Assembly (NCBI RefSeq): GCF_020595125.1
Contig: NZ_JACNMS010000001.1
Location: 496,001 to 560,000, forward strand
Length of the DNA: 64,000 bases
Origin: Jeotgalibacillus aurantiacus
GTDB taxonomy: Bacteria > Bacillota > Bacilli > Bacillales > Jeotgalibacillaceae
Direction of reading: 5' to 3'
Made by a program: the position numbers and the translations under genes. Of the stretch, positions 6,704 to 20,064 are shown piece by piece. The notes beneath the pieces were generated by a model that was not told the origin of the DNA, searched no databases, and saw nothing but the letters and a program-made list of their open reading frames with translations. Position 1 is the first letter of the stretch. Each line of letters begins with the position of its first letter.

Positions 6704-6755
6704 GGGGACGGAGCGCCCGTTCTTTTTCCTAAAAAGGAACGGGCGCTCCGTCCCC
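6704..6755. repeat. 52-bp GC-rich palindrome, copy 1
   Basis: A near-perfect inverted repeat with arms GGGGACGGAGCGCCCGTTC and its complement around a TTTTTCCTAAAAA centre. A degenerate half copy (GGGAACGGAGCGGGTG) precedes it at 6678-6693. The right end overlaps the last base of the stop codon of the minus-strand phosphatase gene. Confidence 0.95.
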
Positions 6756-9712: not shown

Positions 9713-9737
9713 GGGGACGGAGCGGGTGTTCTTTTTT
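9713..9737. repeat. GC-rich palindrome, half copy
   Basis: Only the left arm is present (GGGGACGGAGCGGGTGTTC then T-run), 19 nt after the amylase stop. It shows that half elements exist apart from the full palindrome. Confidence 0.85.
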
Positions 9738-15337: not shown

Positions 15338-15514
15338 TCACTTACCATTTCCAGCCTTTCGTTCTAAAGATTCCAGCTTTTCTTCGATACGATTCAGCTG
15401 CCTTCTTCTTCCCAGCAGCGATTTAACTACCATTGTTACCGTTATAACACTAAGAATCAGCAATAACATCATAATTATTTGATAAACTGCATCTCCCGTA
15501 CTGAACCCTGCCAT
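15338..15514 (-). CDS. DUF4083-like small membrane protein
   Basis: A 58-aa protein with one membrane helix (about residues 11-33) and a charged helical tail with a coiled-coil look (RIEEKLESLERKAGNGK). This architecture matches the DUF4083 family of Bacillales. The open frame extends upstream through palindrome copy 5, but GAGGTG before ATG 15514 gives the real start. Function unknown. Confidence 0.75.
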   Translation of the reverse strand: MAGFSTGDAVYQIIMMLLLILSVITVTMVVKSLLGRRRQLNRIEEKLESLERKAGNGK

Positions 15515-15594
15515 TCTTTTCACCTCGACTTTATTCTTACAATATGTATAAGATGATCCGCCTATTCTACGTGATTTGGAAGAAAAAGTTTCAT

Positions 15595-15646
15595 GGGGAC
15601 GGAGCGGGTGTGCCTTTTTCCTAAAAGGAACACCCGCTCCGTCCCC
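15595..15646. repeat. 52-bp GC-rich palindrome, copy 5
   Basis: Arms GGGGACGGAGCGGGTGTGCC and GGAACACCCGCTCCGTCCCC. It lies 8 nt from the stop codon of the zinc-ribbon gene. Confidence 0.95.
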
Positions 15647-15654
15647 ATGCGTCT

Positions 15655-15957
15655 TCACCACAAAGGCTCTTTCTCATTTGATAGTTCAATCGAAAATGGC
15701 ACGATGACCATGACGATGATGATAACCGGAATGGCCAGCATCAGGTATGGAAAGCCGGCCAGGTCGAATAAAGGCCGGCCGAGCACAACGCCTAATAGAG
15801 CGATTACGTATATAAGGTTTGTCCGTTTTCCGGATCTCGTGGATAAATACTGGGGCGTTCCGCAGTAAAAACATTTCGTCCCTTTGGAATACAGCAGTGC
15901 TTTTTTTATCGATTGTGTAAATGTCCACCGTTTTCCACACGTATTGCAAGTTGGCAT
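15655..15957 (-). CDS. Zinc-ribbon membrane protein (CxxC-20-CxxC type)
   Basis: A 100-aa protein. Two CxxC knuckles (CNTC at about 4-7 and CFYC at about 29-32) form a zinc ribbon, followed by two membrane helices (about 48-66 and 69-88) and a short charged tail. This matches the small TIGR04104-like family. Its ribosome site (AAAAGGAG) is encoded by the last codons of the upstream histidine kinase gene, 3 nt away, so it is cotranscribed and probably coupled. It could be a partner of the kinase (inference). Confidence 0.85.
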   Translation of the reverse strand: MPTCNTCGKRWTFTQSIKKALLYSKGTKCFYCGTPQYLSTRSGKRTNLIYVIALLGVVLGRPLFDLAGFPYLMLAIPVIIIVMVIVPFSIELSNEKEPLW

Positions 15958-15960
15958 GGG

Positions 15961-17766
15961 TTATCTCCTTTTGTAACGGTTCTCTAGAGCGGGAACAGGC
16001 GCACCGCCTCCCTGTTTCTGTTCCTTATCTGCTGACTGATCTTCACTTTTGGGGAGAAGTACCGTTACTGTGGTCCCCCATCCCTGTTTACTTTTTACAG
16101 TCATTTTCCCTGCATAATCCTTGATCAGCTTAAAACAGATTGCCAGACCAATGCCGGTGCCTTTCTCTTTGTTCGTAAAGTACGGTTCTCCAATACGGGA
16201 CATCCGTTTTCTGGATATACCTTTTCCATTATCGATTATGCGAATACGCACACATTCTTCAAATTCATCGATTTTAATTTTAATACTTCCATTGGTGGAT
16301 AAGGCTTCGAGACTGTTTTTGATTGTGTTGATCATAACTTGTTTAAAGTGGGATTTTTGCATTTTCGTATAAATGCTGTTTGGCAGCTTGTTTGTGATGG
16401 AAATTCGCTTGTTTTGCTCCAGCGCAACAGGCTCAAACAGTAGTTTGACATTTCCGATTTCCTGCATCACATCTATTCTTGAATCCTCGGGATAATTTTG
16501 TGACACGACGGCTTCCGGCTTTGCCAATAAGAGAAGTTCTTTGAGCACCTCATCAATCCGGTCTATTTCATCAAGGATAATTTGTTCGTGCTCACCGTTC
16601 ATATTCCTCTCACTCAACAGCTGAATAAAACCTCTGACAGTTGTTAACGGATTTCTGATTTCGTGTGCAATGCTTGCTGCCAATTCTCCGACAACCTTTG
16701 TCTTTTCAGTAGACAAAAGCAGTTCCTCGTTTTGCTTCTGATTAGTAAAATCGACTCCATAAAATAAAGTGTAGTTTTCTTCATCATTGAGTTCAAGATC
16801 TCTGAATCCCCATTGAATAAAGTGAACCTCTCCCGTTGGACGCATAATCCGGTGGAGGGTCTCATCCTTAGTCGTCAAACCGTATTCTTTTTGAAGCAGA
16901 CTGAAATCCTGACAGAGCATGGCTTCTTTCTTAATGGAAAGGAGCTTACATATTGAATCATTGAGGCGAATCATTTGATTGTCTTTGTTTAATACCACAA
17001 GATAATTTGGATTAATATTCATGATGGTTTCAAGGAGGCTACTCTGTTTGTATAACCGGGTATTAGCATCATTCAGCTTATTTGATTGCATTTCAAAGAA
17101 TCCTAAAAACAATAAAATAGCTACAAGGATGGAATTGAAGCTTGAAAAATATAGTGGAAGAACGCCAAATCCACTAAAAATACCGTTTAGAAAAACAAAA
17201 ACAGCACCAAAAGCAAGTTTTGTATAAAATACCTTAAAGTAGTAATCATTAAGTTTTACGGTTACATTTAACAGAAAGAAGGTATTAATAAACACCATTA
17301 AAACATTGATTAAAAAGGTTGAATTAAGCGTCCCATAAACGGGAATTAAATGTTGTGGAGCAATATCTGTCTCGGGAACAACAGTATATCCAGACACTCC
17401 AAAACCGGTGAAATTGACCAGGTAAACCACGATACTGAAGCTTAGGAAGAGATAAAAGCCGTAGCGGTTAAAAAACCATCTGTAGCCTTTTACTTCCTGA
17501 TTATTTTTCACCAGATAATAGCCGAAATAATACATTAAAGGCATAATCATGATGGGACCAATACGAAATATACGAAAAACAGTTCCGATAAAAGCTTCAC
17601 TGAAAAATTCATCCGCGTACAAAAAAGCAATATCAATTTGCCACAAGCACAAGAACATGAGAAATAATGATAATGCTTTTGTAACCTCAGTTTTTGAATA
17701 GAAAGGTAAGGATGCTGCCACAATGGCCGGAATCAGCGAAATGGCGATCAACAATATAAATTCCAA
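15961..17766 (-). CDS. Membrane sensor histidine kinase
   Basis: A 601-aa kinase. An N-terminal region of about seven helices (residues 1-225) resembles the 7TM sensor domains of sporulation-type kinases. A PAS-like segment follows (about 240-350), then the HisKA box GELAASIAHEIRNPLTTV with the phosphoacceptor His. The ATPase domain has N box TIKNSLEAL, G1 IDNGKGI and G2 KEKGTGIGLA. No response regulator is adjacent, so it may feed a phosphorelay (inference). The TTG start has AAAGGGAG 7 nt upstream, inside the ketoacyl-synthase gene end. The C-terminal GGGAPVPALE resembles a translated decayed palindrome. Confidence 0.93.
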   Translation of the reverse strand: MEFILLIAISLIPAIVAASLPFYSKTEVTKALSLFLMFLCLWQIDIAFLYADEFFSEAFIGTVFRIFRIGPIMIMPLMYYFGYYLVKNNQEVKGYRWFFNRYGFYLFLSFSIVVYLVNFTGFGVSGYTVVPETDIAPQHLIPVYGTLNSTFLINVLMVFINTFFLLNVTVKLNDYYFKVFYTKLAFGAVFVFLNGIFSGFGVLPLYFSSFNSILVAILLFLGFFEMQSNKLNDANTRLYKQSSLLETIMNINPNYLVVLNKDNQMIRLNDSICKLLSIKKEAMLCQDFSLLQKEYGLTTKDETLHRIMRPTGEVHFIQWGFRDLELNDEENYTLFYGVDFTNQKQNEELLLSTEKTKVVGELAASIAHEIRNPLTTVRGFIQLLSERNMNGEHEQIILDEIDRIDEVLKELLLLAKPEAVVSQNYPEDSRIDVMQEIGNVKLLFEPVALEQNKRISITNKLPNSIYTKMQKSHFKQVMINTIKNSLEALSTNGSIKIKIDEFEECVRIRIIDNGKGISRKRMSRIGEPYFTNKEKGTGIGLAICFKLIKDYAGKMTVKSKQGWGTTVTVLLPKSEDQSADKEQKQGGGAPVPALENRYKRR

Positions 17767-17770
17767 GTTC

Positions 17771-18925
17771 TCACTCCCTTTTTATCACCATGCTGCTATT
17801 CGATCCTCCGTATCCCTGGGAAGTGATTAATACATGATTGATAGATTGATTGATTCGTTCAGTTACTATATTCATTGGTTTTATAACCTGTTTATCACAG
17901 TTTACAGTTGGCGGAATAAATTGTTCATTGATGCTGATCAGTGTCGATACAGCCTGAAACATGCCTGATGCTCCCATCGAGTGACCGACCATTCCTTTAA
18001 TGGACGTGATAGGAATATCTCTTTCAGCAAATCGCTGCTGATAAATGCTTTCTTCAATTGAATCAATCTGTGTTATTCCTAATGCCTGACTGTTTATATA
18101 ATTAGGATATCCTTCTGCCAGACACCGGTCAACTGCATATAACAATTGATTTCCATTTTTATCAGACTTATACGGAGATTTTGCGTCCTGACTTGAAAAA
18201 CAGGCACTTACTTTCCCATATACCCGGGCTCCTCGTTTTATTGAGAACTCTTCACTTTCTAAAATCAGTACACCTGCACCCTCGGACATTGAAAAGCCGG
18301 TTCCTTTGAATGGACCTGGTGGTAAGACTGAACCCCGATGTAACACATTCAGCTTTGAAAAGCTTTCAAGAATTAAGGATTCAAGTGTTGAATCCGTTGC
18401 CCCGGCAATCACACGATCAACCTGTCCGGATTCGATCATCATTTTCCCAAGCTCAATAGACTGCAAACCAGAGGGACAGCTGTTGGTGAGACAATAGGAA
18501 GGTCCATTCGCCTTAAACGCTGCACTGACTGCTGAGGCTAACGAATAGCTGTTCATATTCCCGATATGAAAAATAGACGTCTCCTGCTCCTGATTTCGAG
18601 CGAGCTGAATCGTCTCGTCAATCGCTCCACCCGACGTTCCGATGATCACAGCAGTTCGGCCGTCCTGAACGTCAAAGCTTGCCATATTAACGGCTTCATG
18701 ACAGGCATGAAGTAAGAGTCTTGCTGCTTTTGGAAGCTTTTTAAACACGGCTGGAAACAGGCTCATAGATATCTCTTCATCTTTGACTCTTCCTGTATAA
18801 ATAAACGATTGCCCTAACTTTTCCTGTTTTAAAACGACCGTACCACTTTTTAAAATTGATGATAATTGACTAACACTGTTAAACCCCGGTCCAATAATAC
18901 CGTATCCCGTTACGACTGTTGTCAT
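17771..18925 (-). CDS. Divergent beta-ketoacyl synthase (Cys-Gln-His)
   Basis: A 384-aa thiolase-fold protein related to FabF. The nucleophile Cys150 is kept (LTNSCPSG) and so is the second catalytic His315 (GMVGHSMGASG), but the first catalytic His of the usual HGT motif is replaced: NYINSQALGITQID aligns with DYVNAHGTSTPAGD, putting Gln280 in its place. The terminal GYGGSNSS loop is present. Such a change may abolish decarboxylative condensation or give a specialised reaction. No acyl carrier protein gene is nearby. It is followed after 4 nt by the sensor kinase. ATG 18925 has AGGGGG 6 nt upstream. Confidence 0.88.
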   Translation of the reverse strand: MTTVVTGYGIIGPGFNSVSQLSSILKSGTVVLKQEKLGQSFIYTGRVKDEEISMSLFPAVFKKLPKAARLLLHACHEAVNMASFDVQDGRTAVIIGTSGGAIDETIQLARNQEQETSIFHIGNMNSYSLASAVSAAFKANGPSYCLTNSCPSGLQSIELGKMMIESGQVDRVIAGATDSTLESLILESFSKLNVLHRGSVLPPGPFKGTGFSMSEGAGVLILESEEFSIKRGARVYGKVSACFSSQDAKSPYKSDKNGNQLLYAVDRCLAEGYPNYINSQALGITQIDSIEESIYQQRFAERDIPITSIKGMVGHSMGASGMFQAVSTLISINEQFIPPTVNCDKQVIKPMNIVTERINQSINHVLITSQGYGGSNSSMVIKRE

Positions 18926-19223
18926 CATGATCCCCCTGCAAATAAACATTTAATAGACCTATTTTACTATTAAATTTGCATAATAAATACATATTTTACA
19001 AAAAGGTATCGTAAATTATCACTTTCTGAGATTTTAACGAAAAAAAAGCCTTTCCTGTACAAAAAGGAAAGGTTTTTCGACAATCTTTTCCCGGGAAATA
19101 ACTTGGCTATATTGTAACTGTGTTTTGATTTCGTTCTAATTCCTGCGGGATAAAGTTGAATCTCAAATCCGCCCTGCCAAAATCACTCACTGAACATATC
19201 CTGTTATAAAGGTGGTGATATCA
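18926..19223. other. Intergenic region with promoters
   Basis: AT-rich spacer between the divergent ketoacyl-synthase operon and the YjcZ gene. It holds a hairpin with T-runs on both sides (about 19043-19080, AGCCTTTCCT pairing with AGGAAAGGTT), which could act as a terminator or attenuator on either strand. No other gene seen. Confidence 0.5.
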
Positions 19224-19322
19224 GTGAGCTACGGACATGGATATGGGTACGGCGGCGGTTTTGCGTTGATCGTTGTTTTGTTTATTCTGTTGATTATTGT
19301 TGGAGCAGCCTATTTCAAATAA
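19224..19322 (+). CDS. YjcZ-family sporulation micropeptide
   Basis: A 32-aa peptide starting at GTG. A Gly/Tyr-rich head ([11 protein letters not shown]) is followed by one membrane helix ([19 protein letters not shown]). This is the exact layout of the YjcZ/SscA-like tiny proteins of Bacillales spores. AAAGGTGG lies 8 nt upstream and a strong terminator follows. It is too short for most gene callers. Expression during sporulation is inferred from the family. Confidence 0.9.
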
Positions 19323-19331
19323 GAGTAAAAA

Positions 19332-19370
19332 GGTCAAACATCCGGCACATGTCCGGATGTTTGACCTTTT
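19332..19370. terminator. Bidirectional terminator
   Basis: A 14-bp perfect stem (GGTCAAACATCCGG and its complement) with A-rich and T-rich flanks. It serves the YjcZ gene on the plus strand and the nucleotidyltransferase on the minus strand. Confidence 0.93.
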
Positions 19371-19371
19371 C

Positions 19372-20064
19372 TTATCCTGTATAACCATCAAACAGTCTGC
19401 CACCATACGGCGCAAGCTGCTGGTCAATAAACTGAATCAGGCTGTATTTATTTTGTTTTTTATAATAGTCATTTAAACATGCGTTTAATGATTCACAGAT
19501 TTCAGGATCGAAGGTTTTGAGGGATCGGTAGACCCATTTCCCTGTCCCGGTCCAGCAGCGGTTCATTCGGAGTATAAAAAAGTGCAGTACCTCAATCAGG
19601 GAACAGACTGTAAAATCATTCTCTTCTTTATGTGAAGATGCTTCTAAATCGGTCAGCATATCTGATATCACATAGCGCAATTCGTCAACCCTGTAGGAAG
19701 GAAGCTCATCCGGTCCCTCTATCAGCAACTGCTTTCCTTTATCAATCATGTCCTGAGCAGCTTTGCCTCCGCGAAGTATGAATCCTTCAGCGCACATTCT
19801 AATAATAAGCGGGATTCCTTGCTGTTTTTCTATATAAAACGTATAGGGGAGGGATTCACTTGAATAAATAAAACTCTCTACAGGTTTCCCTTCATAAAAA
19901 GCAGATTTCCTGTAGGATTGTTTTGAATCAAGAATAAATAGATCGAGGTCTGAGGATGCCGTATGATCTCCTCTGGCAAAGCTTCCGGATAATAAAGCCA
20001 CTTCACAATCAGGAAAATGCGTCTCTACATATTTTTCAGCAATGGACAGTACTTGTGTCTCCAA
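19372..20064 (-). CDS. Nucleotidyltransferase-domain protein
   Basis: A 230-aa protein with an N-terminal polymerase-beta-like nucleotidyltransferase fold: LLSGSFARGDHTASSDLDL gives the G-S-x(10)-D-x-D metal motif at about residues 26-41. The helical C-terminal half (about 110-230) is like those of aminoglycoside nucleotidyltransferase relatives. Substrate unknown. It stands alone, sharing a terminator with the YjcZ gene. Confidence 0.85.
   Translation of the reverse strand: METQVLSIAEKYVETHFPDCEVALLSGSFARGDHTASSDLDLFILDSKQSYRKSAFYEGKPVESFIYSSESLPYTFYIEKQQGIPLIIRMCAEGFILRGGKAAQDMIDKGKQLLIEGPDELPSYRVDELRYVISDMLTDLEASSHKEENDFTVCSLIEVLHFFILRMNRCWTGTGKWVYRSLKTFDPEICESLNACLNDYYKKQNKYSLIQFIDQQLAPYGGRLFDGYTG

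Follow-up and report, generated by a model that had tools for sequence, protein, structure and literature searches.

Pairs of adjacent genes encoding a small-molecule synthase and a membrane sensor kinase, such as CqsA/CqsS, AinS/AinR, LqsA/LqsS, and RpfF/RpfC, are found in Gram-negative hosts and involve other enzyme folds and other receptors than those considered here. We analyzed a stretch of 64,000 nucleotides (nt) of Jeotgalibacillus aurantiacus (contig NZ_JACNMS010000001.1, positions 496,001 to 560,000; hereafter the window), in which the gene of a ketosynthase-like protein (KS) is followed by that of a sensor histidine kinase (HK) with a seven-transmembrane-helix (7TM) receptor domain. 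The KS shares its fold, Cys, Lys, and second His with FabF/FabB (the β-ketoacyl synthases KAS I/II), but differs from them in that the first catalytic His is missing in all examined members of its family and in being paired with sensors. An engineered mutant of E. coli KAS I, H298Q (PDB 2byz, with a C12 fatty acid), carries what appears to be the same His-to-Gln change; our literature search found no paper on this mutant. The signal made by PqsBC, another condensing-enzyme relative, is read by a receptor that is not known to be a co-encoded 7TM protein. PqsBC has an altered catalytic set and is described as converting an acyl thioester into a quorum signal, the catalytic His not being involved in the acyl loading of PqsC (PMC4807248); it is a FabH-type heterodimer in a multi-gene pathway, unlike the KS family studied here. 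The KS0 domains of trans-acyltransferase polyketide synthases lack the elongation His and have been proposed to assist in handing over the chain without elongating it (PMC9582728). They resemble our family in keeping the Cys and losing the catalytic His, but they are domains inside assembly lines, whereas the family KS are stand-alone proteins beside which no gene for a carrier protein recurs.

On the receptor side, BtsS, a sensor of the LytS type, is reported to bind pyruvate on the outer side of its membrane-spanning part, with two arginines involved (PMC10653868). BtsS and the PF16927 (HisKA_7TM) proteins have an N-out seven-helix sensor fused to a kinase, as here, but neither type shows profile similarity to the 7TM domain of the KS partners. 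We thus rejected both as identities of that domain, PF16927 at an hhalign probability of 3.7 against a shallow alignment of 14 rows and the LytS type (PF07694, 5TM-5TMR_LYT) with no Pfam match and a probability of 0.1 against a shallow one of 8 rows. PF16927 is present as a separate gene in the J. aurantiacus genome.

The KS and its neighbors were compared in three overlapping sets (e.g., L091 and L002/G004, with G000, G042, and G118 in both samples): an order sample of 397 genomes, with 32 KS in 30 genomes found by similarity to the window KS; a class sample, in which a profile search found 19 family KS in 19 of 329 genomes, some with lower scores (336–453 bits); and a named set of 80 loci of 147 relatives, fetched by two peptide patterns. 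The gene directly downstream of the KS encoded one shared 7TM domain of about 223 amino acids (aa) in 30 of the 32 order-sample loci, and a same-strand gene for this same domain came next after the KS in 79 of the 80 named loci (L102, whose partner ends at a contig edge, being counted as a 7TM match and left out of alignment A3). The order in the paired loci of both sets was always KS then receptor, with a median gap of 11 nt (range −80 to 198; at most 30 nt in 70 of 79). Among 27 FabF control loci, all with the NAHGT motif, none had this 7TM domain less than 1.5 kb away from the match. The distances between KS and those between 7TM domains were correlated (r = 0.80 over the 58 rows, window included, common to alignments A2, with 59 of the 79 named partners, and A4, with 61 of the 80 named KS and without the short KS of L161; r = 0.84–0.89 within receptor classes), and none of 2000 shuffles reached the observed correlation. 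Synthase and receptor genes are therefore both adjacent and co-varying, with exceptions. After the KS (32) and its partner (30), the next commonest gene cluster in the order sample occurred in 4 of 32 loci, and no carrier protein, reductase, or transferase recurred beside the KS in that sample.

The preliminary description of this locus had coupled the KS to a sensor kinase. The coupling to a sensor was borne out, but the restriction to kinases was not, since 13 of the 30 linked order-sample receptors are GGDEF-EAL proteins. Unlinked homologues, on whose absence that description had made its idea depend, do exist; they are mostly receptors without an adjoining KS (45 of 75 loci), KS without a sensor directly downstream being rarer (2/32, 1/80, and 4/19 in the order, named, and class sets). 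The two unpaired order-sample KS are those of genomes G065 and G321, each of which also encodes an unlinked 7TM protein of kinase size.

Copies of the pair were also seen on plasmids of Virgibacillus and Rossellomorea, where two KS records are annotated merely as "beta-ketoacyl synthase N-terminal-like domain-containing protein". On the plasmid of Rossellomorea sp. AcN35-11 (L267:7216-9004), the 7TM-kinase frame is split in two and followed by an overlapping gene for a 119-aa receiver protein. A wider spread on plasmids was not retained: it came from 28 Streptomyces/Pseudonocardia records, with 27–29% identity among the matches listed, and the plasmid match that was opened (H5) turned out to be a type II polyketide cluster. 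Ten phage-collection records match at less than 60% identity, five of them listed at 25–29%.

The window KS (384 aa, positions 17771–18925, minus strand; PF00109/PF02801) belongs to a family found across many Bacillus-type genera and Paenibacillus, as stand-alone open reading frames (ORFs) of 387–458 aa in the order sample; a KS relative at 88% was noted in the congener genome G004. Its predicted structure (AlphaFold; predicted local distance difference test, pLDDT, 93.3; predicted template modeling score, pTM, 0.94) is a thiolase-like KS fold, with FabF/FabB as the best folds, the KAS I H298Q mutant 2byz among them (Foldseek E ~1e-32, TM 0.87–0.92). It thus has the KS fold and nucleophilic Cys of the FabF type, but neither the His of the NAHGT motif nor the score required by the NCBIfam fabF model (167 bits, cut-off 493.75). 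An ordinary FabF duplicate was rejected because order-sample KS scored 473–596 bits in their own profile vs. 257 for the next best among the matches listed, and because one branch with 100% support (Shimodaira–Hasegawa-like approximate likelihood ratio test) separated the family from four FabF rows.

As the preliminary description had read from the sequence, the catalytic set of the window KS is Cys150 (codon 18478-18476), Gln280 (codon 18088-18086), and His315 (codon 17983-17981), all on the minus strand, where the aligned FabF controls have Cys-His-His. Position 280 was Gln in all 32 order-sample and all 19 class-sample KS, two counts free of conditioning by the search pattern. It was Gln in 75 and Leu in 5 (all Paenibacillus records) of the 80 named loci, a count that is partly conditioned because one of the fetch patterns contains NSQALG. 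A free reversion to His, which had been named as a possible objection, was seen in none of the three sets (0/80 in the named loci), and by these alignments the loss of the first catalytic His is family-wide and no local oddity. Cys150 and Lys310 were invariant (80/80 named loci), whereas position 315 carried His in 56 of the 80 loci and Asn in the other 24, all Asn forms having short 7TM-HK partners. Lys or Arg occupied positions 62, 63, and 66 in 66, 72, and 78 of the 80 loci, aligning near an Arg-Lys pair of FabF. L246 and L247, which carry another KS, were left out of these residue and basic-patch counts. At L246:5028-7442, a single ORF of 804 aa contains two KS halves, the first with Cys-His-His and the second, by eye, seemingly without a catalytic set, like a fused KS/chain-length factor. 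Ratios of nonsynonymous to synonymous substitution rates (dN/dS) of 0.07–0.17 in four pairs point to purifying selection on the KS.

The partner in the window is a 7TM-PAS-HisKA-HATPase sensor kinase of 601 aa with a TTG start (15961–17766, minus strand), in which we recognized the N-terminal 7TM receptor domain (aa 1–235, 17062–17766), a weak PAS match (Pfam E 0.033), the HisKA phospho-acceptor domain (aa 360–419, 16510–16689; PF00512, E 9.2e-15), and the HATPase_c domain (aa 472–574, 16045–16353; PF02518, E 2.5e-22). The 7TM domain is common to KS partners with differing outputs: 7TM-PAS-HK, 7TM-HK, 7TM-PAS-GGDEF-EAL and, in two Paenibacillus loci, 7TM-GGDEF-EAL. Among the 78 of 79 named partners that were scanned, we found HATPase_c in 46, GGDEF in 32, and EAL in 31. 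The 7TM part of the window kinase had no Pfam match at E 1; its model had a pLDDT of 94.7 and a pTM of 0.91. Fourteen of the 19 conserved residues lie in the outer half and outer loops (outer vs. inner transmembrane part, p 6e-5), and the inner loops are the least conserved part of the domain. Class C G-protein-coupled receptors (GPCRs; GABA-B, GPR156) gave no sequence match and a Foldseek E of ~1e-3, and the modeled likeness may reflect the common seven-helix arrangement. A scan of the phylum found the domain in 2 of 329 genomes, both in this order, a scarcity that is weak evidence of absence because this first look scored at most eight candidates per genome.

The closest PDB sequence to the window kinase is Sporulation kinase B (3d36, residues 349–579); in NCBIfam it scored 174.7 bits with KinD, below the cut-off of 775, and higher with AtoS (189.2). 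The similarity to Sporulation kinase B suggests a possible role in sporulation. Phosphorelay kinases are often orphans without an adjoining response regulator gene, and none is encoded in the window operon.

At least 75 receptor loci were present in the order sample, 30 linked to a KS and 45 unlinked, with at most seven candidates scored per genome, so that receptor counts are lower bounds. All 13 GGDEF-EAL receptors of this sample were linked; the frames of the unlinked receptors did not exceed 644 aa, and their length and motifs placed them among the kinases. Linked and unlinked forms interleaved in the receptor tree (built without the broken receptor of L244), with at least 14 changes, of which starred branches force nine. 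Synteny with L060 is preserved at L210 and L214, but the KS is gone: in both, the DNA match still covers the 3'-terminal 43 nt of the KS gene, stopping at the same base, and the last 15–20 KS codons are recognizable at the receptor start (tblastn E 0.007 and 7e-4). A larger KS remnant is kept at L202. These traces fit KS loss at the three loci; at the remaining unlinked loci, either loss or gain of the KS may lie behind the pattern. The unlinked receptors keep most conserved residues and have dN/dS values of 0.06–0.22 (ten pairs). By these estimates, purifying selection maintains receptors even in the absence of the KS. For the kinases of the window and L089, the dN/dS of 0.026 came with a dS of 2.8 and was not used.

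We favor, with a probability of roughly 0.5, the reading that the pair is a synthase-receptor module, the KS transferring acyl groups without elongating them and thereby producing a lipid-like ligand for the receptor. Cys150 would take an acyl group from acyl-acyl carrier protein (acyl-ACP) or acyl-coenzyme A (acyl-CoA), and we propose that the KS performs no ordinary malonyl-dependent elongation because its first catalytic His is replaced by Gln. With the Cys, the Lys, and the basic patch kept, the KS probably loads an acyl group but does not elongate it with malonyl units. The acyl group would then be passed to another acceptor, or a modified acyl product released. The small lipid-like product would enter the membrane or the medium and bind the outer half of the co-encoded 7TM bundle, shifting the receptor output, either autophosphorylation in the kinase forms or cyclic di-GMP (c-di-GMP) turnover in the GGDEF-EAL forms. 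The window kinase would probably feed a sporulation-type phosphorelay, and genomes without the KS that retain the receptor may listen to a ligand that others make or that has another origin. The outer-half conservation of the receptor points to a small product as the sensed signal, as does the outer-side ligand binding described for BtsS (PMC10653868). Moreover, as no single domain is common to all partners, a small molecule would link the pairings more simply than any one protein contact. The suggestion of the preliminary description that the sensor's ligand is made or bound by the KS is thus well motivated, because the KS-sensor pair is conserved and the His at position 280 is missing family-wide, with the ligand itself putative.

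Several observations weigh against this reading. Some receptors evidently do without the KS, because 45 of the 75 receptor loci have no adjoining KS, and D45, one of the pocket-side residues, is kept in 28 of 44 unlinked receptors vs. 92% of linked ones. No exporter or acceptor-substrate gene is conserved beside the KS in the order sample. The Leu280 (5/80) and Asn315 (24/80) forms imply that subgroups may vary in their chemistry or have lost part of it, and catalysis may have been lost in the Cys-Gln-Asn subgroup. In the class sample, the KS neighbor was a 7TM protein in 9 of 19 loci and another kinase in 6, with neither directly downstream in 4. The six other kinases (L289, L291-L295) are 394–449 aa long, with an unannotated N-terminus of about 165 aa and no 7TM match, the Pfam scan covering three of the six; such a cytosolic-looking kinase in one clade misfits a purely extracellular ligand. 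An identity of this N-terminus with the fatty-acid-binding non-heme globin sensor of sporulation kinases is not claimed, the best PDB sequence having E 0.2 at a threshold of E 10. Three of the four sensor-less class-sample KS belong to a Paenibacillus-like clade with the motif NSQAMG (L284-L286, also designated L296-L298). At L296, an old-yellow-enzyme gene lies upstream of the KS, and a convergent gene encodes an alpha/beta-hydrolase with a regulator-like part; L298 resembles L296 by its gene starts.

The main alternative, which we regard as unlikely although it comes next after the synthase-receptor reading, is that a catalytically crippled KS serves as a regulatory subunit, binding acyl-ACP, malonyl-ACP, or acyl-CoA and reporting the status of fatty-acid synthesis by direct contact with the receptor. 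The missing first His, the Asn at the second His position in 24 of 80 loci, the retained Cys and basic patch, the co-variation of KS and 7TM domain, and the partnering of the KS with a kinase devoid of the 7TM domain in one clade are all compatible with this model, and a membrane kinase can receive the state of fatty-acid synthesis, as work on DesK indicates (PMC3996569). However, the 7TM, PAS, HK, and GGDEF-EAL domains are each absent from some pairings, which leaves no common partner domain, the inner loops that would be the obvious docking face are the least conserved part of the receptor, and receptors persist without the KS. It is far less probable that the KS works as a common enzyme of lipid or secondary metabolism and lies next to sensors by chance or for regulation alone. 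The 4 of 19 class-sample KS without a sensor directly downstream and the old-yellow-enzyme neighbor at L296 would suit such an enzyme, but it is already disfavored by the adjacency, always in the same gene order, at 30/32 order-sample and 79/80 named loci, vs. 0 of 27 FabF loci, and by the lack of recurring carrier protein, reductase, or transferase genes in the order sample. Slightly more improbable still is acylation of the partner protein by the KS, which the KS fold, invariant Cys, altered His, and strict pairing would suit but to which the lack of a domain common to all partners and the purifying selection on receptors without a KS are opposed.

In the window, the pair is followed by a third gene on the minus strand (15655–15957), encoding a putative zinc-ribbon membrane protein of 100 aa with a CXXC-(X)20-CXXC motif (TIGR04104, 53.8 bits, cut-off 45). 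The tight spacing reported in the preliminary description is correct, with 4 nt from the KS stop to the TTG of the kinase and 3 nt from the kinase stop to the ATG of the zinc-ribbon gene, as is the location of the ribosome sites, the purine-rich AAAAAGGGAG and AAAAGGAG lying within the last codons of the preceding genes. A conserved triad of genes, also suggested there, was rejected: among the 31 other order-sample loci, a zinc-ribbon homologue occurs solely in the congener (L089/G004). The zinc-ribbon gene is thus coupled to the KS-kinase pair here but stands outside the conserved module. A promoter scan of positions 15400–19400 was uninformative (11 sigma-70-like sites vs. 10.8 expected). 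Just 3' of the operon lies a 52-bp palindrome (15595–15646, strand not assigned), possibly a transcription end or an element of the repetitive extragenic palindrome (REP) type. It belongs to a palindromic family (GGGGACGGAGCG...CGCTCCGTCCCC) of which the genome has 24 strict copies, six of them within the window (at 6704, 7953, 12695, 13932, 15595, and 21408, 52 bp each), with partial or looser copies at 9713, 24554, and 25467. The family could be REP-like, similar to miniature inverted-repeat transposable elements (MITEs), or a set of shared terminators.

Altogether, the KS-receptor pair at this locus is real and conserved and extends beyond kinase operons, a pair to which the third gene is peripheral and for which a ligand is putative. 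A literature search, mostly outside subscription papers, recognized no description of such a pair. We tentatively suggest, at somewhat less than even odds, a widespread and so far unrecognized lipid-signaling system of Bacilli, in which a stand-alone non-elongating ketosynthase would make a diffusible or membrane-borne acyl signal for a GPCR-like seven-helix receptor, the outputs being swapped between sporulation-type histidine kinases and c-di-GMP enzymes and the receptor-only species being listeners. The analysis defines a 7TM sensor domain without a Pfam model match. To our knowledge, acyl-signal synthases with their own receptor are known mainly from Gram-negative bacteria and with other enzymes. 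If the proposed system is real, Gram-positive spore formers would have a synthase of an acyl signal together with a dedicated 7TM receptor, fatty-acid metabolism would be tied to sporulation or biofilm decisions via one gene pair, and meaning would be given to genes annotated merely as KS N-terminal-like domain proteins.

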